From Halobacteriovorax sp. JY17 (GTDB taxonomy: Bacteria; Bdellovibrionota; Bacteriovoracia; Bacteriovoracales; Bacteriovoracaceae), in assembly GCF_002753895.1 (NCBI RefSeq), contig NZ_NJER01000001.1, forward strand, positions 186,001 to 250,000: 64,000 bases of DNA. The letters run 5' to 3'. How positions within the stretch are numbered: the stretch's first letter is position 1; every line of letters begins with the position of its first letter. Below are positions 45,721 through 57,956 of this stretch, one piece after another. The notes below the pieces were generated by a model. It made no database searches. It was given only the letters and a program-made list of their open reading frames with translations, and was not told where the DNA came from. Made by a program: the position numbers and the translations under genes.

Positions 45721-48243
45721 ATGAAAATAATTTTTTATTCCACAGATAAGTCAGTAGAAAAGTTCTTCTCGTCCATAGAGGTCGATGACTCTTTCCTATG
45801 TGCTAGCCTCGATGAGCTAGAGACCCATTTATCTGATGAAAAGCAAAGTGTTATTTTTCTAGATTTTGATTGTGATGAATTAGAATGCTCTTCTCTAAGT
45901 AATGAGTTAGCGAGTATTGAAACAATCAATACCGTTTTAATTAGTAAAAAGATGAGTTTAAAAGAAATTTTAGAATTTCAAAATTCAGAAGATGCATGTG
46001 ATGCGTATCTTGCTAAGCCTCTTGCTGTAGAGGTTTTAAATGGTGTTATTAATGATTTTGAAATTGCTCTGAGCTCTGCTAATGATAGTGGGGAGAGTGT
46101 TGATAGTGGCTCTTCTAATGTTGATCTAACTTTTGTTGGAGTAAAGAAAGACCTCTTAGAGCAACTTGATAATATAGAAGTTGAGGAAGAGGATTCAGAA
46201 GAAGACGAAGAAGAAATTGATTTTAAAGCAAGTACATTACAGGTGGCCTCAGAAGTTCGCGATGTTATTGATTCACATAAGTCTAATGGAACAAATTTTG
46301 ATAATGTAGTGAATGATGAAATTCAAAGAAAGTTTGATGCTGTTTTTGAAAGAGTTAATCATTCTGATCTAGAGAGTGTAAAAGAAGAATTTAATATTAC
46401 TCCTCAGGGATTTGATTCTGAGGAAGTAGAGACAATAAATGATGATGGAATAAGTTTTGATCTTGGGTCGGAAGACTCTACACAAGACGATGCCGCGAGA
46501 GAAGAACATAGTGAAGTGGCAGAGAGTGCCAAAGATCCTTTGGTAGAGGTTAAAATGTCGGATGATAAAGAAGAAGATGTAGGACTTGAGTTTAATATTC
46601 CTGATAGTGAAAGTCCAAGTGATGACTCTGTCAATTTAGCTGAAGATCAAAGTGACGATTTAAGTTTTTCGCAAGAGGAAGATGAGATAGAAGGTGGTCT
46701 TGAATTTAATCTTGGTAGTGATGAGGAAACGGCTACCGATATTACTGAGGGAGAAAACTCTGACGATCTTGATTTCTCTGAAGAGACAAGTGGTGGTCTT
46801 GATCTCAGCGTAAATGAAGAAGATTTTAGTGCAGCAGATAATTCGGTAGAAGAAGATACAGGTCTTAGTTTCGACGATGAAGACTCTAGTGACGATCTCT
46901 TAATAGGAGAGGGGGAAGACTCTTCTCGTAGCTCTAATATAGATGAAGAAGATGGACTCTCATTTGACGACGACGAAGATGAAGGACTTAATCTTAATGA
47001 GTCCTATGAAACAGAATCTGAAAATATAGAAGTATCAAGCAATGATGATTTAGACTTCAGCGCAAATGAAGAAGATTCTGGCGTAGATTTTAGTGATGTT
47101 GAAGCTACCGATCCGTCCTATGAAACAGGAATGGGGTCTGATACCTCAAGTGATATTGAATCAACAATAAGCTCCATTGTTGCCCCTTCTACTTCTGATG
47201 AGAATTCAACAGGTGAGTTTGATTTATCAAATATTGCTAACGATGTGATAGACGATGAAGAAGAGGAGATGCAGGAGTTTGATTATAAAACTTCTGGTTT
47301 CTCTACGAGTGCTTTAATTGAAGATGATGATTTTGGTGACATAGATGATAGCCTAGGCGATGATACCAATCCAACAATTGTTGCGAGTACTTCAACTCTC
47401 ACTACTAGTGATTTCATGGCACAAAGTGGAGAAGACTTAAGCGATGATAGTTTTGATGAGGCAGAAGAGCTCTCATTTAGTGATGAAACTGGAACAAATG
47501 AGATTGAATCAAATTTAAGTCCTGATAATACTGGAGAAACTGTCGTTGCGGACATGTTAAAAAATGAAGTTGAAGAAGTTTCCTACGCAGAGACGAATAC
47601 TCCAAAAGTAGAAAATATAGCAAGAAGTTACGACGAAGATGAAATGCTTCGACTTCAAGGGACGATTAGACAATTGAGAGAGGAGAGAGAGTCTCTAATG
47701 AATAGTATTAATTCTTTAACTAGTGAGAAGCAATTGCTCTCTCAGGATAATTTGGGATTAAAGGCCGAATTAGACGAAGTTAAAATTGAACTTGAGATTG
47801 TTAAAAAGAGAAGTCACGATGAAGTAAGTGAGATGAAATATCAAATGAATCTAAGTCATGAAAAGAAAGATGTTTATGAAATGAAGTATAAGAGTCTTTA
47901 CAAGGAATTTGACCGCTTGAATCAGAAAGTGAGAATTGACTTTAATCAAGTTAAGCAAAGAGAGAAAGAGCTAGAAAGTAAGCTCGAACTAGTCGTTATG
48001 GATTCAGACTCTCAAGTCCAGACAAGAGATATGAAAATTCTTGAATTAAAGAGAAAGATTGATTCATTAGAGTTTAATATGGAGAATTCTTCAATTAGAG
48101 AGCAAAAACATAGAGAAGACAAATCAAAACTAGAGGAACGATTGGCCAAGATTATGAAGACCTTAAGAGGGTCTATACAGCTGATTGAAGATGACCTCGA
48201 AGTTTTAGAAACCGACAATACAACTGACTTGGATAAGAATTGA
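45721..48243 (+). CDS. Receiver-like, acidic, coiled-coil protein (AglZ/FrzS-like architecture)
   Basis: 840 residues in three parts. Residues 1-115 fold like a response-regulator receiver: phospho-acceptor Asp48 (VIFLDFDCDE) and Lys99 (YLAKPL) are present, but the usual paired acidic residues after strand 1 are reduced to one (FYSTDK). Residues ~120-630 are extremely acidic and Ser-rich, with recurring LSFDDE and GLDFS phrases. Residues ~637-830 are a long coiled coil (LRLQGTIRQLREERESLMN and onward). The receiver-plus-coiled-coil plan recalls Myxococcus AglZ/FrzS, but no homology over the rest is claimed. Its TGA overlaps the TTG start of the next gene. Confidence 0.7.
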   Translation: MKIIFYSTDKSVEKFFSSIEVDDSFLCASLDELETHLSDEKQSVIFLDFDCDELECSSLSNELASIETINTVLISKKMSLKEILEFQNSEDACDAYLAKPLAVEVLNGVINDFEIALSSANDSGESVDSGSSNVDLTFVGVKKDLLEQLDNIEVEEEDSEEDEEEIDFKASTLQVASEVRDVIDSHKSNGTNFDNVVNDEIQRKFDAVFERVNHSDLESVKEEFNITPQGFDSEEVETINDDGISFDLGSEDSTQDDAAREEHSEVAESAKDPLVEVKMSDDKEEDVGLEFNIPDSESPSDDSVNLAEDQSDDLSFSQEEDEIEGGLEFNLGSDEETATDITEGENSDDLDFSEETSGGLDLSVNEEDFSAADNSVEEDTGLSFDDEDSSDDLLIGEGEDSSRSSNIDEEDGLSFDDDEDEGLNLNESYETESENIEVSSNDDLDFSANEEDSGVDFSDVEATDPSYETGMGSDTSSDIESTISSIVAPSTSDENSTGEFDLSNIANDVIDDEEEEMQEFDYKTSGFSTSALIEDDDFGDIDDSLGDDTNPTIVASTSTLTTSDFMAQSGEDLSDDSFDEAEELSFSDETGTNEIESNLSPDNTGETVVADMLKNEVEEVSYAETNTPKVENIARSYDEDEMLRLQGTIRQLREERESLMNSINSLTSEKQLLSQDNLGLKAELDEVKIELEIVKKRSHDEVSEMKYQMNLSHEKKDVYEMKYKSLYKEFDRLNQKVRIDFNQVKQREKELESKLELVVMDSDSQVQTRDMKILELKRKIDSLEFNMENSSIREQKHREDKSKLEERLAKIMKTLRGSIQLIEDDLEVLETDNTTDLDKN

Positions 48244-49256
48244 GCGAAGAAAATTTAAGTAAATATTATAAGAATTTGCTAGATTTCATCTTTGAATGTG
48301 ATCAGCTTGATTCAATAAAACAAGTCTATGAATTATTAAATAGCTTTTGGATCGATGAATTTAATTCATCCTCTTTAAATGTCTTTAGTGTTTTTAAAAA
48401 GAATCCAAATGAAAGATCATGTCGTCAGATATGGAGACCTAAGAAGCTTGTAGACGCGTTAACTGAATCAGAGTTAAGACTCTTTAAAGAAACTATACGA
48501 AGCGAAGAAGGCATTCAAGGGACCTGGAAGAATATCTCGAAAGTATCAGAGAAGAACTTCTATATCATTTCTTGTGGAGAGTCTTATGAGCAAGAGTTCT
48601 TTGCAGGGTTTAAGTCGAAAGATGAGATACCTGATAAAGTCTTAGACTATCTCGTTACTTACCTCATTAACTCTTCTAATAAGTTTAAGAAATTTAGTGA
48701 AGCAGACAAACTTAAGTCTCTTGTACATGTAGATGATGTAACAGGACTATATAACCAAAGAAAATTCTTAAAAGACATAGATGATAGTATTGATAAATAT
48801 AATGAGACAGGAGAAGTTTTCTCTGTGATTTTTATAGATATTGACCACTTTAAGAGTGTGAACGATGGACATGGGCACCTTGTTGGAACTCAGCTTCTTT
48901 CTGATATCGCAGGAGTTTTAAACAAAGTGGTGAGAGAAAGTGATCTTTCTTATCGCTATGGAGGTGATGAATTCGTCATCATCGTTCCAACGTGTGATGC
49001 TAAGAATGCAAAAGAAGTAGGAATAAGAATTTTAAATGGTATCTCTAAAGAAGAATTCTATGTCACAGAAGAGAAGGGAATGAATGGCGCTCATACCTTT
49101 AAACTTTCAGTCTCCGTTGGTGTTGCTACTTATCCTGAGGATGCAAAGACTAGAGTGGAGATCATTAGTTTCGCAGATAAAATGATGTACAAAGCAAAAC
49201 AATCCGGAAGAGGCAAGGTTTGTTGTGCTGGAGAAATGTTTACTGAGGAAGAGTAA
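48240..49256 (+). CDS. Diguanylate cyclase (GGDEF)
   Basis: Makes cyclic di-GMP from two GTP. The GGDEF domain (~165-335) begins with DDVTGLYNQRKF and has the intact active motif GGDEF at residues 241-245. An RxxD inhibitory site (RESD) lies exactly five residues before it, so product inhibition is expected. The N-terminal ~160 residues form an unrecognised GAF-like alpha/beta region. Translation starts at TTG 48240, overlapping the previous stop (TTGA), and its stop is directly before the phosphoesterase ATG. This tight coupling suggests the three proteins act together. Confidence 0.93.
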   Translation: MSEENLSKYYKNLLDFIFECDQLDSIKQVYELLNSFWIDEFNSSSLNVFSVFKKNPNERSCRQIWRPKKLVDALTESELRLFKETIRSEEGIQGTWKNISKVSEKNFYIISCGESYEQEFFAGFKSKDEIPDKVLDYLVTYLINSSNKFKKFSEADKLKSLVHVDDVTGLYNQRKFLKDIDDSIDKYNETGEVFSVIFIDIDHFKSVNDGHGHLVGTQLLSDIAGVLNKVVRESDLSYRYGGDEFVIIVPTCDAKNAKEVGIRILNGISKEEFYVTEEKGMNGAHTFKLSVSVGVATYPEDAKTRVEIISFADKMMYKAKQSGRGKVCCAGEMFTEEE

Positions 49257-52667: not shown

Positions 52668-53804
52668 ATGAAACATATTCTCATTGTTGATGATGATTTA
52701 GACATTCATGCTCTCTTTAAGATTCACTTTAAAGATTTAAATCTTAAGCTTCACTTTGCAACAAATGTTGAAGAAGCTCTTATTCATTTAGAACACGACG
52801 ATATCGCTTTTATTTTTCTAGATATAATTATTGGAGATAATGAAACAAGTTATCGGATACTGAAAAATAGTGGAGATAGACCCGTTTTTCTCATGAGTTC
52901 TCATATTACTGATGTCTTTTGCCAAAGAATTGTAGAGAAGAATATTAATATTCTGGACTGCTTGGCAAAACCTTTTACGAAGAAAGAAATTGTAAATCTC
53001 TTATCGAGTTATAAAGGTTTTGAATATGGAGCGACAAAGTTTAATCCAAATGAAGAAATTCACCTGGTAAAAGGCCAAGGTGAGGATATAGGTGAGGAGT
53101 CCTTTCATATAGATGGATTTCTAGAAGAAGATAGTGGAAGTGAATTAGTTAGAGGGACGAAGGAAGATCTTACTGAGGCGGTTAATATTGTTTCTGGAGA
53201 AAACTCAGAAAGTAGTGATGAGCATATAACGATTATTTCTGGCGAGAATTCTCATATAAATAATAGAGAAATTTTAAAAATAAAACACTTAAACGAATTA
53301 GAAGAGTTAAAGTCACAAGGACCTCTAGCGAGAACCGATGAGGGATATACAAGACTAATGATTGCTGTCTTCTTGGAAGATTTAGAAGAAATCAAAGAAG
53401 CTCTTCGTGATGGAGAGAAGATTGATAATATGTGCCGAGGAGGTTACACGGCCCTTCACTTTGCAGTTATAAAAGATCAGCTTGAAATCGTAGAATACCT
53501 TCTAAGTAAAGGTGCTAAACTCACAGTGAAAGATAATGATGGCAGAGAGCCTTTATATTTTGCCATTTTTAGAGGCAATTTAGAAATGGCAAAAACTCTA
53601 ATCGAGGCAGGAGCTCCGTTAAATCGAAGAGTTAACGGGAAAACTTATTTAATGATTGCAGTGTTTAAAAGGAATGAAGTATTATTTAAGTATCTGCTTT
53701 CAAAGGGAATACCTCTACTTATAAGAGATAGTAATGGTTTTAATGTTAACTACTATCTCAAGAAGTATAAGCTTGAGCACTACTTACTCCCAGAAAGTGC
53801 ATAA
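52668..53804 (+). CDS. Response-regulator receiver fused to ankyrin repeats
   Basis: 378 residues. The receiver at 1-115 has acidic pair Asp8/Asp9, phospho-acceptor Asp52 (FIFLDI), Ser77/Ser78 and Lys101 (LAKPFT), so it should be phosphorylatable. A ~100-residue linker (120-222) carries four short recurring phrases: LVKGQGED, LVRGTKED, IVSGENSE and IISGENSH. Residues ~225-365 form four ankyrin repeats (TRLMIAVFLEDLEEIKEAL, GYTALHFAVIKDQLEIVEYL, REPLYFAIFRGNLEMAKTL, TYLMIAVFKRNEVLFKYLL). The output is protein-protein binding, not DNA binding. Heads the signalling island. Confidence 0.9.
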   Translation: MKHILIVDDDLDIHALFKIHFKDLNLKLHFATNVEEALIHLEHDDIAFIFLDIIIGDNETSYRILKNSGDRPVFLMSSHITDVFCQRIVEKNINILDCLAKPFTKKEIVNLLSSYKGFEYGATKFNPNEEIHLVKGQGEDIGEESFHIDGFLEEDSGSELVRGTKEDLTEAVNIVSGENSESSDEHITIISGENSHINNREILKIKHLNELEELKSQGPLARTDEGYTRLMIAVFLEDLEEIKEALRDGEKIDNMCRGGYTALHFAVIKDQLEIVEYLLSKGAKLTVKDNDGREPLYFAIFRGNLEMAKTLIEAGAPLNRRVNGKTYLMIAVFKRNEVLFKYLLSKGIPLLIRDSNGFNVNYYLKKYKLEHYLLPESA

Positions 53805-53817
53805 CTAGGAATTGCTA

Positions 53818-54189
53818 ATGGAACTTAAATTTATCGTCATTGATGACTCTTCGGAAATGGTTGCTCTACTTAATAAGTATATAGAGAATTGTAACTTAGG
53901 ACATGGTCATTCATTTGAGAATGAATTTGAGGCCATGGAATATGTTTCTGAAAATAAAGCAGATATTTTAATTATTGATGTGAATCTAAAGCATATTAAT
54001 GGATTTAAGTTAGGAGATATGCTTCGAGTGATCTTAAAAATTGAAATTCCAATTATCTATATTTCTGCTAATAATCAATATGTAAAAGAGTTCTATGAAG
54101 CAGATCAAAGAAATACTTACTTTATGAATAAACCCTTTGATAAAGAAACATTTCAATCAGTCATTAAGAAGATGACTCATACTACTTAG
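53818..54189 (+). CDS. Stand-alone response-regulator receiver protein
   Basis: 123 residues, one receiver domain: acidic pair Asp9/Asp10 (IVIDDS), phospho-acceptor Asp54 (ILIIDVNL), switch Ser in YISANN, Lys in MNKPFD. No output domain. The ATG at 53818 is preferred to an earlier TTG because AGGA lies seven bases upstream. 13 bases after the receiver-ankyrin gene, so probably co-transcribed. It may pass phosphate to the HPt protein like CheY or Spo0F types. Confidence 0.85.
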   Translation: MELKFIVIDDSSEMVALLNKYIENCNLGHGHSFENEFEAMEYVSENKADILIIDVNLKHINGFKLGDMLRVILKIEIPIIYISANNQYVKEFYEADQRNTYFMNKPFDKETFQSVIKKMTHTT

Positions 54190-54887
54190 ATCTTATCTAT
54201 TCCAAGAAGAACACGTCTAACATTTGCCATAAGTTCTAAGTCATCAAAATCAAATTTAACAGTAATAAGATAACTAATAGAATCTTCTTCTCTCACTGAG
54301 GACTCTATTGTTCCATAGACGAATTTCTCTGATGAAATACTTTGGAAGAGTTTTCCCGTCATTTTAATTTTATTTCCTTTAGAAATGAAATTAAATGATT
54401 TAAAAGTAACACCTTCTTCGTCTAGTGAGACAAGATTGAGGTCTAGTTCAATATATGAATCTCTAGATGTTGAAGGAACTGCGAAATAGGGAAGAGAAGA
54501 CGATTCTTTATACATATCACCTAGAACAGCATTTATTTTACATTGTACTGTCGTTTTATCGAGAGGTTTTGTGATGTAATCGTCTGCTCCTAGGTCGAGA
54601 CCTTTTTGGATGTCCACTTCTGCAAATCTTCTGGAGACAATAACGATTTTTATTTGATTTCCAAACTTCTTTCTAATTGCTCGTAGAATCTCATAGCCAG
54701 CGCCCTTTGATGTTTCTAGATTTAAGTCTACGATACAGAGATCGGGCGTGAATTTATTAAATTCTTCAAAGAACTCGGAAGCAGTCAGAGCTGTTCTCAC
54801 AAAGTATTCCTCTGCCGATAAAATATCTTTTAGAAAGACATTTATATCTTTATCGTCATCAATGGTGAGAATCTTCTTTTTATCCAA
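54186..54887 (-). CDS. Response regulator with PilZ-like C-terminal domain
   Basis: 233 residues. The receiver is at 1-122, with Asp10-Asp12 (TIDDDKD), Asp54 (LCIVDLNLE), Ser85 and Lys107 (DYITKPLD). The C-terminal ~100 residues have a beta-barrel pattern (KIKMTGKLF, EKFVYGTIESSV, YLITVKFDFDD) reminiscent of PilZ domains but without a clear RxxxR c-di-GMP motif. Convergent with the previous gene (4-base overlap), and one base after the next receiver gene on the same strand. Could bind c-di-GMP or a partner protein. Confidence 0.75.
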   Translation of the reverse strand: MDKKKILTIDDDKDINVFLKDILSAEEYFVRTALTASEFFEEFNKFTPDLCIVDLNLETSKGAGYEILRAIRKKFGNQIKIVIVSRRFAEVDIQKGLDLGADDYITKPLDKTTVQCKINAVLGDMYKESSSLPYFAVPSTSRDSYIELDLNLVSLDEEGVTFKSFNFISKGNKIKMTGKLFQSISSEKFVYGTIESSVREEDSISYLITVKFDFDDLELMANVRRVLLGIDKI

Positions 54888-54888
54888 A

Positions 54889-55569
54889 TTAAACCCTTCT
54901 CTTTTGGCGCTTTCTTATTAATTGAAGTATTGACTCTGGGAGACCAATCATCTGCATGACGGTATCATAAATTCCAGGATTAATATCTCTCGATTTCTGA
55001 TAGATTTTTATATGTCCTTTTTTTACATTCATTTCATTGAAGAAATTACTTTCAATTTCAATTTTCTCCTTAGTCATAAATTTTACTTTAGATCTTATGA
55101 CAAAGGAGATTTCATTAAATTTAATTATTTCTCCTGGAACAAATACTTTTGCCTCTTTGTATTCATCCATCGCTGTAAGTTCTGGGAGGGCCTTTTCTTT
55201 AGAATACTTTCGTACTGTATTTATTAAGGTATTATTACTCAGTGGTTTTATTAAGTATCCCTGAACACCATATTTCTTTGAAAGAAGAATAGACTCTTTT
55301 GATTTTTCACTAGAGATCATATAAACCTTTAAGTGCTTAAGTATTTCTCTTTCTTTTAAAGCATCTAATAAGGCAAAGCCCGCTTCATTTTCTAGATTAA
55401 TATCTAGAAAAACCATATGTGGTGCATACTCTAATACTTTAGAGAGAGCATCTTCGGTATTAGTGGCCTTAAGAACGACGGCTCCAATATTTGAAAGAAT
55501 TTTCTCACAGAAAACTAGAATATCTAGATCATCATCGACTATGAGAATATACTTCTTGGTCTCTTTCAA
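54889..55569 (-). CDS. Response regulator with unassigned C-terminal beta domain
   Basis: 226 residues. Receiver at 1-125: Asp12/Asp13 (IVDDDLD), Asp56 (MVFLDINLE), Ser86/Ser87, Lys108 (GYLIKPLS). The C-terminal domain (140-226) begins VFVPGEIIKFNEISFVIRSK, has alternating strands like its neighbour at 54186, and ends in a basic helix (QLIRKRQKRRV). The two proteins look like diverged duplicates in receiver length and layout. Stop and start are spaced by one base, so they are co-translated behind the HPt gene. Confidence 0.75.
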   Translation of the reverse strand: MKETKKYILIVDDDLDILVFCEKILSNIGAVVLKATNTEDALSKVLEYAPHMVFLDINLENEAGFALLDALKEREILKHLKVYMISSEKSKESILLSKKYGVQGYLIKPLSNNTLINTVRKYSKEKALPELTAMDEYKEAKVFVPGEIIKFNEISFVIRSKVKFMTKEKIEIESNFFNEMNVKKGHIKIYQKSRDINPGIYDTVMQMIGLPESILQLIRKRQKRRV

Positions 55570-55878
55570 TTAATCCACCTTTATAAACTTTACCTCTACG
55601 TTATCGACGTAATCTATAAAATCAGTAATAAGTTTTCTTACCTTTTCCTCATTCTCTTCTCCGGCGCTAAGCTCAATTTCCTTGGCTATCTTTCCCAATT
55701 GATGGAAGCCATAGCCTCCTGAGCTACCACTGACTTTATGTCCAATTCGCTCAATCTCTTTGAACTCACGTTTCTCATAGAAGTTCTGTAGTTCTAAAAC
55801 ATCATTCTTTCTATTTTCGAGAAAGCCTGGAACTATATCTTCTAGGTCATCATCTATCTCTACTGTAAATGGCTCCAC
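55570..55878 (-). CDS. Histidine phosphotransfer (HPt) protein
   Basis: ~102 residues, a four-helix HPt with phospho-accepting His in ERIGHKVSGSSGGYGF, matching the consensus HxxxGxxxxxG around His47. The GTG at 55878 is chosen because AGGAGG lies five bases upstream; a GTG at 55884 would overlap the ribosome site. First gene of a minus-strand trio with two receiver proteins. It would shuttle phosphate between the hybrid kinase and the receivers. Confidence 0.85.
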   Translation of the reverse strand: MEPFTVEIDDDLEDIVPGFLENRKNDVLELQNFYEKREFKEIERIGHKVSGSSGGYGFHQLGKIAKEIELSAGEENEEKVRKLITDFIDYVDNVEVKFIKVD

Positions 55879-56062
55879 GAGCACCTCCTACGTCTTAAAT
55901 TCTAATTATCTGAATTTAGATAAGCACCACTCTATTTTGCCATGACTTAGTGTTTCGAATAACAATTTTTCCTAAAGATTCCTTAACTAGTAAGTATTTT
56001 CAGCCTCTTATGTGGTAAAATTAATTTAGTTTAATCTAGGTTTACCGATAGAATAGGGTGCA

Positions 56063-57529
56063 ATGAATATACTAATAATAAACCACAGAAATTTTTCAAC
56101 GGAGCGTATCCAGGAGACCTTTTCCAGTAAAGGCTATAGTGTCTATACTTGCGCTGATCGTAAGGGTGTGGAAAACTTTGTCGAGACAAAGTGTCCGAGT
56201 TTGTTTCTTCTTCCTACTTGTGAAGAAGGTTTCAACATTGCAAGGTTTATTCGAAGCTCTAGAGTGATTGATTACAATTTATCGGCAACGCCAATTCTCT
56301 TTCTTGGTGAGAGTGATAGTATTTCTCAGCGAGTAGAATCTATTTCAAATGGTGGAAGTGATTTTGTTGAGAGAACTAATATTGCAAAAATTATTAAAAT
56401 TTCTAGAAATCTCTTAGAGCCAGATCTTCTTTGGAAGGGGGCAAGAGTAGTAGTCGTCGAAGATGACAAGACCTCTGCGCGCATTGTCTCTTCCTATGTT
56501 GAAAATATGGGATCCTCTGTAAAATGGTTTGATTCAGGAGAGAAGTGTTTTGAGTTTTTAAAGAAAGATACTGCTGATTTGCTACTTGTTGATTATCTCA
56601 TGCCCAAGATGAATGGTGCTGAACTCACTCAAAAAATTAGAAATGAATTAGGGCTAAAAGAATTGCCCATTATTTTCACCTCTTCAACACTTGAAAAGGA
56701 AGAGATCTTAGAGTTTTATAGAAGTGGAGGAAATGATTATATTTCTAAGCCATTTCTAAAAGAAGAACTCTATTCAAAGATGAAGCTGCAGCTAGAAAGC
56801 TCTCAGAATACAAAGTCACAAAATATTTACATAGAAGAATTGAAGAACCTAAGTAATCTAAAAGATCAATTCCTTGCAGTCTGTTCACACGATTTAAAGA
56901 CCCCTCTTAATTCTATTATTGGATACTCAGACGTCTTAAAGTCTGATGTTGCTCTAAGTGAAGATGGGACTGAAATGGTTGAGATTATAAATAATGCCTC
57001 GAGAGACTTACTCACTTTAGTGAATGACTTACTCACTTGTAGTGAGGTTCATTTAAGCGGTGAAGTTGAGTCAGTAGAAATAGAGATTGTAAGAATCATA
57101 GAATATATACTAAAGCAGATAAAAGGGATCTCAAAGAAAGATCTTGAATATAAACTCACACTTGATGTGAAGAAGCCAATCATTCTTGGCAATGAGGCCA
57201 TGCTCCGCCGGGTCTTTTCAAATATTTACTCTAATGCTCATAAGTTTACTCCAATTGGTGGTAAAGTTGAGACCAGAATATGGGAAGAAGGGGACTCCAT
57301 AAAGTGTAGTATCTCAGATTCCGGAATAGGTATTGCTCCTGAGCATTTAGAGAAACTCTTCTCCAGGATGTCGGGAGTTGGAAGAATAGGATTAGAAGGA
57401 CAAAAAAGTACAGGACTAGGATTAAGTATTGTGAAAGATATAGTTGAAAAACATGGTGGAAAAGTAGAAGTAGAAAGTCAGGAAAATAAGGGAACGACAT
57501 TTACTTTAACATTTAATAAGGGAAGGTAG
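56063..57529 (+). CDS. Hybrid histidine kinase (degenerate receiver - receiver - HisKA - HATPase)
   Basis: 488 residues, soluble. Residues 1-118 resemble a receiver without phospho-acceptor: the DD pair is INHRN and the acceptor Asp region reads LLPTCEE. A canonical receiver follows at 126-245 (Glu133-Asp134-Asp135, Asp177, Lys229). HisKA carries H276 in CSHDLKTPLN, then the ATPase with the N-box NIYSNAHKF, G1 DSGIGIA (419-425) and G2 TGLGLS. There is no transmembrane segment, so the signal is cytoplasmic. Four bases before the next receiver gene, so part of one operon. Confidence 0.9.
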   Translation: MNILIINHRNFSTERIQETFSSKGYSVYTCADRKGVENFVETKCPSLFLLPTCEEGFNIARFIRSSRVIDYNLSATPILFLGESDSISQRVESISNGGSDFVERTNIAKIIKISRNLLEPDLLWKGARVVVVEDDKTSARIVSSYVENMGSSVKWFDSGEKCFEFLKKDTADLLLVDYLMPKMNGAELTQKIRNELGLKELPIIFTSSTLEKEEILEFYRSGGNDYISKPFLKEELYSKMKLQLESSQNTKSQNIYIEELKNLSNLKDQFLAVCSHDLKTPLNSIIGYSDVLKSDVALSEDGTEMVEIINNASRDLLTLVNDLLTCSEVHLSGEVESVEIEIVRIIEYILKQIKGISKKDLEYKLTLDVKKPIILGNEAMLRRVFSNIYSNAHKFTPIGGKVETRIWEEGDSIKCSISDSGIGIAPEHLEKLFSRMSGVGRIGLEGQKSTGLGLSIVKDIVEKHGGKVEVESQENKGTTFTLTFNKGR

Positions 57530-57532
57530 ATT

Positions 57533-57904
57533 ATGCGCATTTTACTCTTAGATGATAGTGTGGATAATTTAAATTTACTAAAACTCTATGCGAAAAAGTC
57601 CTCCGATGAATTCGTCATGGTGTCGGACTCTAGTGTCGCGCTAGATTATATAAGTAAAGAAAACTTTGATCTCTTCTTTCTCGATATTCAAATGCCTCAG
57701 AAAGACGGCTTTGAAGTGCTAGGCGAGGTTAGAGATTCAAATAATGGTAAGGAACTCTTTATATGTGCATTGACGGCACACACCTCTAAAGATGAGGTTG
57801 AAAAGATTAATAAATCCACTTTCAATGATTATCTTGAAAAGCCTATCCTCCGAGATGATTTCTTAAAGTATATCGAAGATTATTCGATTAAGGCCGCGGG
57901 CTAA
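57533..57904 (+). CDS. Stand-alone response-regulator receiver protein
   Basis: 123 residues, complete receiver: Asp7/Asp8 (LLLDDS), Asp51 (LFFLDIQMPQKDGF, very canonical), Thr81 (ALTAH) and Lys103 (YLEKPI). No output. It follows the hybrid kinase by three bases, so it is a likely direct phosphate acceptor. A strong hairpin ends the operon. Confidence 0.88.
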   Translation: MRILLLDDSVDNLNLLKLYAKKSSDEFVMVSDSSVALDYISKENFDLFFLDIQMPQKDGFEVLGEVRDSNNGKELFICALTAHTSKDEVEKINKSTFNDYLEKPILRDDFLKYIEDYSIKAAG

Positions 57905-57931
57905 AAAAAAGGAGAGGTAATAAACCTCTCC
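57903..57931. terminator. Bidirectional terminator
   Basis: GGAGAGG (57911-57917) and CCTCTCC (57925-57931) form a 7-bp stem with a TAATAAA loop. The minus strand continues with eight T, a good terminator for the basic protein gene. The plus strand has only TTCTT. Confidence 0.8.
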
Positions 57932-57956
57932 TTCTTATATCTAAACTAAATTTAAA

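Follow-up and report, generated by a model that had tools for sequence, protein, structure and literature searches.

A candidate split phosphorelay with PilZ-like output regulators in Halobacteriovorax sp. JY17 and its relatives

Seven signalling genes in three predicted transcription units

The subject of this analysis is a group of signalling genes in Halobacteriovorax sp. JY17 (family Bacteriovoracaceae, phylum Bdellovibrionota), located in a window of 64,000 nucleotides (positions 186,001 to 250,000 of the forward strand of contig NZ_NJER01000001.1, assembly GCF_002753895.1). Seven genes, here called g1 to g7, occupy positions 52668 to 57904 of this window, and an earlier note made from the sequence alone had presented them as one phosphorelay island. 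We favor a narrower reading, to which we assign a probability of about 65%: that the products of g6, g7, g5, g4 and g3 form a five-protein His-Asp-His-Asp phosphorelay in which a hybrid kinase has been split into genes, and in which tails that appear to derive from the PilZ domain would provide the output. The genes and associated features are as follows, in window coordinates.

52668 to 53804, plus strand: g1, receiver domain (REC, acceptor D52), linker and ankyrin repeats; 378 amino acids
53812 to 54189, plus strand: g2, lone REC (D56); 125 amino acids
54186 to 54887, minus strand: g3, REC (D54) with a probably PilZ-like tail; 233 amino acids; TTG start; predicted terminal response regulator
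54889 to 55569, minus strand: g4, REC (D56) with a tail homologous to that of g3; 226 amino acids; TTG start; predicted terminal response regulator
55570 to 55884, minus strand: g5, stand-alone HPt, acceptor H49; 104 amino acids; heads the g5-g4-g3 operon
55885 to 56062, no strand: divergent intergenic region of 178 bp that separates the HPt operon from g6-g7 and presumably holds the promoters of both
56063 to 57529, plus strand: g6, soluble kinase with pseudo-receiver (P51), REC (D177), HisKA (H276) and HATPase; 488 amino acids
57533 to 57904, plus strand: g7, lone REC of the hybrid-kinase type (D51), beginning 3 bp downstream of g6; presumed intermediate receiver
57909 to 57933, plus strand: terminator-like hairpin of 10 pairs that closes g6-g7; a consensus match only

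All seven open reading frames are judged to be real from the list of frames and from domain calls made with Pfam (matches listed to E≤1), and these calls, together with gaps of 0–7 bp within g5-g4-g3, g1-g2 and g6-g7 that fit three transcription units, bear out the parts list and the layout given in the earlier note. At the same threshold, none of the seven proteins matched a DNA-binding domain in Pfam. The terminator scan as a whole found 3 candidates compared with a mean of 2.7 in shuffled sequences, that is, no excess.

The kinase g6 has the domain order REC-REC-HisKA-HATPase (HisKA E 1.5e-15 and HATPase E 9.9e-27 in Pfam), with H276 of the H-box and the N-box both located, and its highest 19-residue Kyte-Doolittle mean, 0.83, indicates a soluble protein. 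The acceptor aspartate is kept in every receiver of the island except the first one of g6, which carries P51 at that place and, judged by its residues, is a pseudo-receiver. This domain covers residues 1–122 of g6 (56063–56430), and in more distant g6 orthologues the matches begin only past residue 23–76. The earlier note lists a soluble hybrid kinase, a name that needs one qualification: g6 departs from the classical hybrid arrangement in that both of its receivers lie at the N-terminus, and the receiver of C-terminal type is a separate gene, g7.

Receivers were typed by comparing a profile of 38 receivers fused C-terminally to kinases with a profile of the receivers of tail regulators. The g7 protein favors the fused-receiver profile by 21 bits and 11 orthologues in relatives do so by 11–35 bits; a further receiver, L078_16, has g7 as its best match in the window and 73 bits for the fused-receiver profile, but lies away from the kinase and was left out of this set. 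Because of this preference, and because its top NCBIfam match is the BarA receiver region (76 bits), g7 fits an intermediate receiver, as far as profile resemblance can indicate. Preferences of g3 and g4 for the tail-regulator profile, by 77 and 59 bits, respectively, are expected in that this profile contains their orthologues, and g1 (−6), g2 (+6) and the second receiver of g6 (+5 bits) have no clear preference. The accessible part of PMC9981736 describes, in general terms, intermediate and terminal receiver classes that differ in kind. As for the HPt protein g5, it exceeds the cut-off of the Pfam Hpt family (30.5 against 24.6 bits, E 4.3e-7), its H49 is invariant across 38 aligned rows, and its best resemblance in NCBIfam is to the HPt part of LetS/TorS/ArcB.

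Linkage of tail regulators, HPt and kinase

The association of these parts extends well outside the genus. Among 368 genomes of the phylum, the profile of the g3 tail matches 130 and that of the g4 tail 174. From the 77 genomes outside the family with a g3-tail match, 33 loci in 33 genomes were picked by score and taxonomic spread, blind to their neighbors. An HPt gene lies within 4 kb of the tail at 29 of these 33 loci, with a 30th (L243) recognized by Pfam only, compared with a chance expectation of about 0.5 HPt-bearing loci calculated from the number of HPt genes in those genomes; a kinase lies within 4 kb at 29 of the 33. Furthermore, at 15 of the 33 loci kinase and HPt share one open frame, as at L231 (genome G132), where an 838-residue PAS-HisKA-HATPase-REC-HPt kinase adjoins one tail regulator of 229 residues. 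At L242, by comparison, the tail regulator, REC, histidine kinase and HPt are four genes on one strand, an arrangement that L244, L245, L255, L257, L262 and L263 resemble by profile. When parts are fused in one lineage but separate neighbors in another, this is a textbook indication that the proteins function together.

A gene of about 460 codons follows the HPt gene in operons with a single tail regulator. It was considered as a counterpart of an HD-domain protein found in the family (see below), an identity that we reject since the HD profiles do not match; by eye, two examples (L242:2614-3987 and L255:8720-10102) have the look of an FAD-linked oxidase, and similarly sized genes follow HPt in several other such operons.

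Within the family, a map of 40 loci picked by a g4 or HPt match (6 of the 40 without a tail) shows HPt, g4 and g3 adjoining one another in most cases, with variable flanking genes. The presence of HPt next to all 34 tail-bearing loci is biased by this selection and is not counted as evidence. Of the seven family loci picked instead on a tail match (L248–L254), two have an HPt gene within 4 kb and one lies at a contig end; three of the seven, from three family genomes (L248, L249 and L250), hold extra diverged g4-g3 pairs with no HPt or kinase nearby, and in two of these three the receiver profile does not match the first member of the pair. Genomes in the genus of the window carry one copy of each tail, two weak hits of the g3 profile on g4 tails being set aside, and a second, weaker pair occurs only in G046.

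Beside this HPt-g4-g3 core, a g6 orthologue is found in every one of the 12 core-bearing genomes from three genera, g7 stays with it, and in one genome of the same genera (G047) g6, HPt and both tails are all absent, a single co-absence. Other genera of the family combine the core with different kinases, for example a CHASE-HK-REC protein (L097) or a GAF/PAS kinase (L083).

Several of these observations weigh against a five-protein relay. No kinase lies within 4 kb at 14 of the 34 family core loci, and three genomes (G001, G053 and G030) carry the core but no g6 orthologue; hence, the link between kinase and core is not universal. In addition, g6 stops at its ATPase domain and has no C-terminal receiver such as a hybrid kinase would carry, and seven HPt matches in the 3.47-Mb genome make cross-talk possible. 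The same gaps in linkage, and the position of g6 divergent to the HPt operon and not inside it, would fit two pathways that merely lie side by side, one in which HPt, g4 and g3 are fed by a hybrid kinase encoded elsewhere, and another, a separate soluble two-component pathway, made up of g6 and g7 (with g1 and g2). We consider this arrangement unlikely, given the constancy of g6-g7 at the core in the three genera and the single joint absence of g6 and the core from G047, the kinase-REC-HPt fusions and four-gene operons in which tail regulators of this kind occur outside the family, and the resemblance of g7 to an intermediate receiver.

The remaining two genes have a different history. The receiver-ankyrin gene g1 is confined at this locus to the five genomes of the genus; g2 is kept in these and also at L072 and L074, from two genomes of a sister genus. 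Hence, of the island whose conservation the earlier note proposed to check, it is the linkage of the five-gene core that recurs, and a relay of these five is supported by co-occurrence, by fusion (15/33) and by the g7 profile. The same cannot be said of g1 and g2, which fit neither receiver profile clearly, and the idea of all seven genes as one unit is not supported. We regard g1 and g2 as later additions with no shown link to the relay, either optional side branches or members of separate pathways. The length of g1 varies from 378 to 643 amino acids, the variation lying between the receiver and ankyrin parts (L071:5607-7535, L069:10637-12157). In one genome of a sister genus, a 390-residue HPt-REC-REC protein is encoded beside g7 (L078:3958-5127), and receiver proteins of similar size occupy that place in L073–L077.

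The paired tail domains and their possible output

The g3 and g4 tails are homologous to one another (hhalign probability 96, P 5e-9), and in profile comparisons the tails of single regulators match both. Their history was examined in a tree of 109 regulators, built by a quick method with midpoint root only and supports from the Shimodaira-Hasegawa-like approximate likelihood ratio test (SH-aLRT); L248–L254, and regulators outside 200–300 amino acids or without a receiver match, were left out. The g3 clade (SH-aLRT 97) includes ten g3-like pair members from other families and the g4 clade (96) includes the ten partners, such that all 10 non-family pairs are split between the clades, and 20 of 22 single regulators, those of Bdellovibrio among them, form a third group (99) beside g4. 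Because the g3 and g4 clades each span several families, the pair, on the evidence of this tree, predates the divergence of these families.

Structure prediction gives models of g3 and g4 with a mean predicted local distance difference test score (pLDDT) of 87.0 and 83.5, respectively. In the AlphaFold2 model of g3, the tail (about residues 134–233) runs strand-strand-strand-helix-strand-strand-helix with a pLDDT of about 87–93 over most of its length. Both tails are thus predicted to be beta-rich domains, in agreement with the beta-barrel tails of the earlier note, and the order of strands and helices in the g3 tail would fit a PilZ barrel.

Whether the tail should be called a PilZ domain requires more care. 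In the window, the g3 and g4 tails match no Pfam family, PilZ (PF07238) included, at E≤1, and Pfam returned no output family over 33 g3 and 34 g4 rows. Outside the family, however, the tail regulator at L255 is over the Pfam cut-off for PilZ (25.1 vs 22.5 bits, E 2.3e-5, positions 26–100 of 102), with weaker matches at L242 (E 0.003) and L264 (E 0.069). All three matches lack the first 22 or more positions, and it is there that the RxxxR segment of PilZ presumably lies. When compared with a local PilZ profile, the single-type tails score 21.9, above the null maximum of 19.0 (57 windows) with a probability of only 13.8%, and the g3-type tails score 21.8 where null scores reach 30.1, which makes the comparison suggestive for the single-type tails only; given that null kinase windows score up to 30.1, hhalign scores near 20 are not evidence alone. 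Comparison of the tail profiles with solved structures gave no match better than E 0.16. Further results tell against PilZ-derived outputs: PilZ is listed for just 3 of the 15 non-family tail regulators scanned (L255, L242 and L264) and for 1 of 33 g3 orthologues (E 0.17 only), with neither window protein matching; the g4-type tail profile does not rise above background; and fold-search rows obtained with the full-length models of g3 and g4 all matched on the receiver and are uninformative for the tail. On balance, the tail is probably PilZ-like, a far-diverged descendant of PilZ, but we do not file it as a member of that family, and the domain has no Pfam name.

The cyclic di-GMP (c-di-GMP) binding motifs of PilZ domains are RxxxR and [DN]xSxxG. 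RXXXR is also named in the available text of PMC8316039. An RxxxR at the tail start is found in 0 of 33 g3 rows and 1 of 34 g4 rows, and [DN]xSxxG anywhere in 0 of 33 and 2 of 34. Direct binding of c-di-GMP in the usual manner by the g3 and g4 tails thus appears unlikely, and with the motifs missing phosphorylation is the likelier switch. The c-di-GMP-like output suggested in the earlier note finds little footing in these tails, and its sole remaining link is a neighbor found elsewhere in the family and not at this locus. This neighbor is a protein with an HD domain and, in many cases, a receiver-like N-terminus, which lies within 5 kb at 18 of 34 family core loci compared with 0 of 33 outside the family. 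Two groups of these HD proteins are homologous (P 1.8e-22), with Pfam HD or HD_5 called for L071 and L105. No such protein is encoded at the window locus, and its best relative elsewhere in the genome is only 25% identical.

Two further observations concern the surroundings of the core. At 7 of 12 loci in three genera (L070, L071, L072, L073, L074, L075 and L078), the gene between HPt and kinase, which is directly upstream of HPt on the same strand, encodes a receiver-HD protein (HD-GYP-like, with the GYP altered) that the window locus lacks. In the window, a GGDEF diguanylate cyclase gene (48240–49256) lies 3.4 kb upstream of g1, a position it keeps throughout the genus; genes for a phosphatase-like protein and an APC-type transporter separate the two.

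One can imagine from this that the g3 and g4 tails sense a cyclic dinucleotide through a non-canonical site, with the HD neighbors and the upstream diguanylate cyclase in the same circuit. Although the probable PilZ ancestry of the tails, the frequency of HD proteins at family core loci and the retention of the GGDEF gene in the genus would all be consistent with such a circuit, the scarcity of both motifs, the position of the HD protein off this locus, with distant homologues only in the genome, and its absence from all 33 loci outside the family make it, in our view, decidedly improbable.

A transcriptional connection is also seen in relatives. At L089, a REC-Trans_reg_C protein of the PhoB type is encoded divergent to HPt, and neighbors of 228–237 amino acids occupy the same place in L079–L082, L086–L088, L091 and L092, a likeness in size only. 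The absence of a transcriptional output asserted in the earlier note thus holds for the island itself, which has no DNA-binding domain, but not for the surroundings of the core in some relatives. It is very doubtful that g3 and g4 serve as phosphate sinks or shuttles and just shape the relay while another regulator, such as this adjacent PhoB-type protein, is the real output, since even with the divergent gene in L089 and its look-alikes by size in nine further loci, the tails are conserved, different families have retained them as a distinct pair, and the window's island has no PhoB-type regulator. In these cousins the core may have transcriptional and c-di-GMP links in its surroundings; neither is part of the conserved system.

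Proposed mechanism and comparison with known systems

In the five-protein phosphorelay that we favor, g6 would autophosphorylate on H276, and its N-terminal receivers would tune this activity. The phosphate would then pass to D51 of the detached receiver g7 (or to D177 of g6 itself), from there to H49 of g5, and finally to the two terminal regulators encoded in the same operon as the HPt protein, g4 (D56) and g3 (D54). Phosphorylation would switch the C-terminal tails of these two, which are most likely far-diverged PilZ domains without a c-di-GMP pocket and may act by binding partner proteins. Predation or motility, both named in the earlier note, is a guess at the target. A bolder and distinctly tentative extension is that this is a core relay of the Bdellovibrio phylum, existing in fused and split forms, in which an ancient output pair with a PilZ-type domain taken off its second messenger is switched through an HPt branch point, and which would issue a non-transcriptional command for a predatory or surface-related step shared by these bacteria.

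Multi-step relays and split hybrid kinases are already known; the new parts here are the phylum-wide unit and the ancient pair of unnamed outputs. We found no paper on this relay in the open literature, subscription papers and preprints being largely outside the search. It is worth considering the relay in light of the biology of these predators, in which the intracellular routing of a decision such as “prey met” or “change state” is largely open, and for which the relay is a candidate. It is present in a large share of the phylum, Bdellovibrio included, and its output is neither DNA binding nor a recognizable enzyme; it offers a family of response-regulator outputs without a Pfam name, and its fused and split forms constitute a natural series for the study of relay rewiring. 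As many as 15 PilZ proteins, putative c-di-GMP receptors, are reported for B. bacteriovorus in the accessible part of PMC3271064, and PMC4603909 covers the two-component genes of strain HD100, the available portion of that paper containing no mention of the relay unit that we could find.

The closest likeness in module order is to the tripartite kinases BarA, TorS, ArcB and LetS, which have the same chain of modules: g7 resembles the BarA receiver and g5 the HPt of LetS/TorS/ArcB, and Bdellovibrio-type relatives have the fused form. The differences are that kinase, REC and HPt are three genes here, that the kinase is soluble with N-terminal receivers, and that the outputs are not DNA-binding proteins. 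The phosphotransferase ChpT of Caulobacter is of the DHp type. In the CckA-ChpT-CtrA/CpdR pathway of that bacterium, as described in the accessible part of PMC9981736, one phosphotransferase serves two terminal receivers, a branching similar to that proposed for g5, and the intermediate receiver differs in kind from the terminal ones; in contrast to that pathway, the phosphotransferase here is a true HPt, and both branches end in sister tail regulators, where the Caulobacter pathway has a DNA-binding output and a receiver-only one.

Two response regulators tied to movement also invite comparison. RomR, studied in the predator Bdellovibrio, is likened here by its description as a response regulator tied to movement control (PMC6428892, accessible part), and no relation to g3 or g4 is claimed. 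PixA of Myxococcus xanthus is, like g3 and g4 as we read them, a response regulator that carries a PilZ domain and lacks a DNA-binding output; according to the available text of PMC8316039, it is important for motility polarity, its c-di-GMP binding is dispensable for motility, and its kinase is unknown. However, PixA carries PilZ first and its receiver second, with full c-di-GMP motifs and no adjacent kinase gene, whereas g3 and g4 have the receiver first, are motif-less, and are encoded together with an HPt protein and a kinase.

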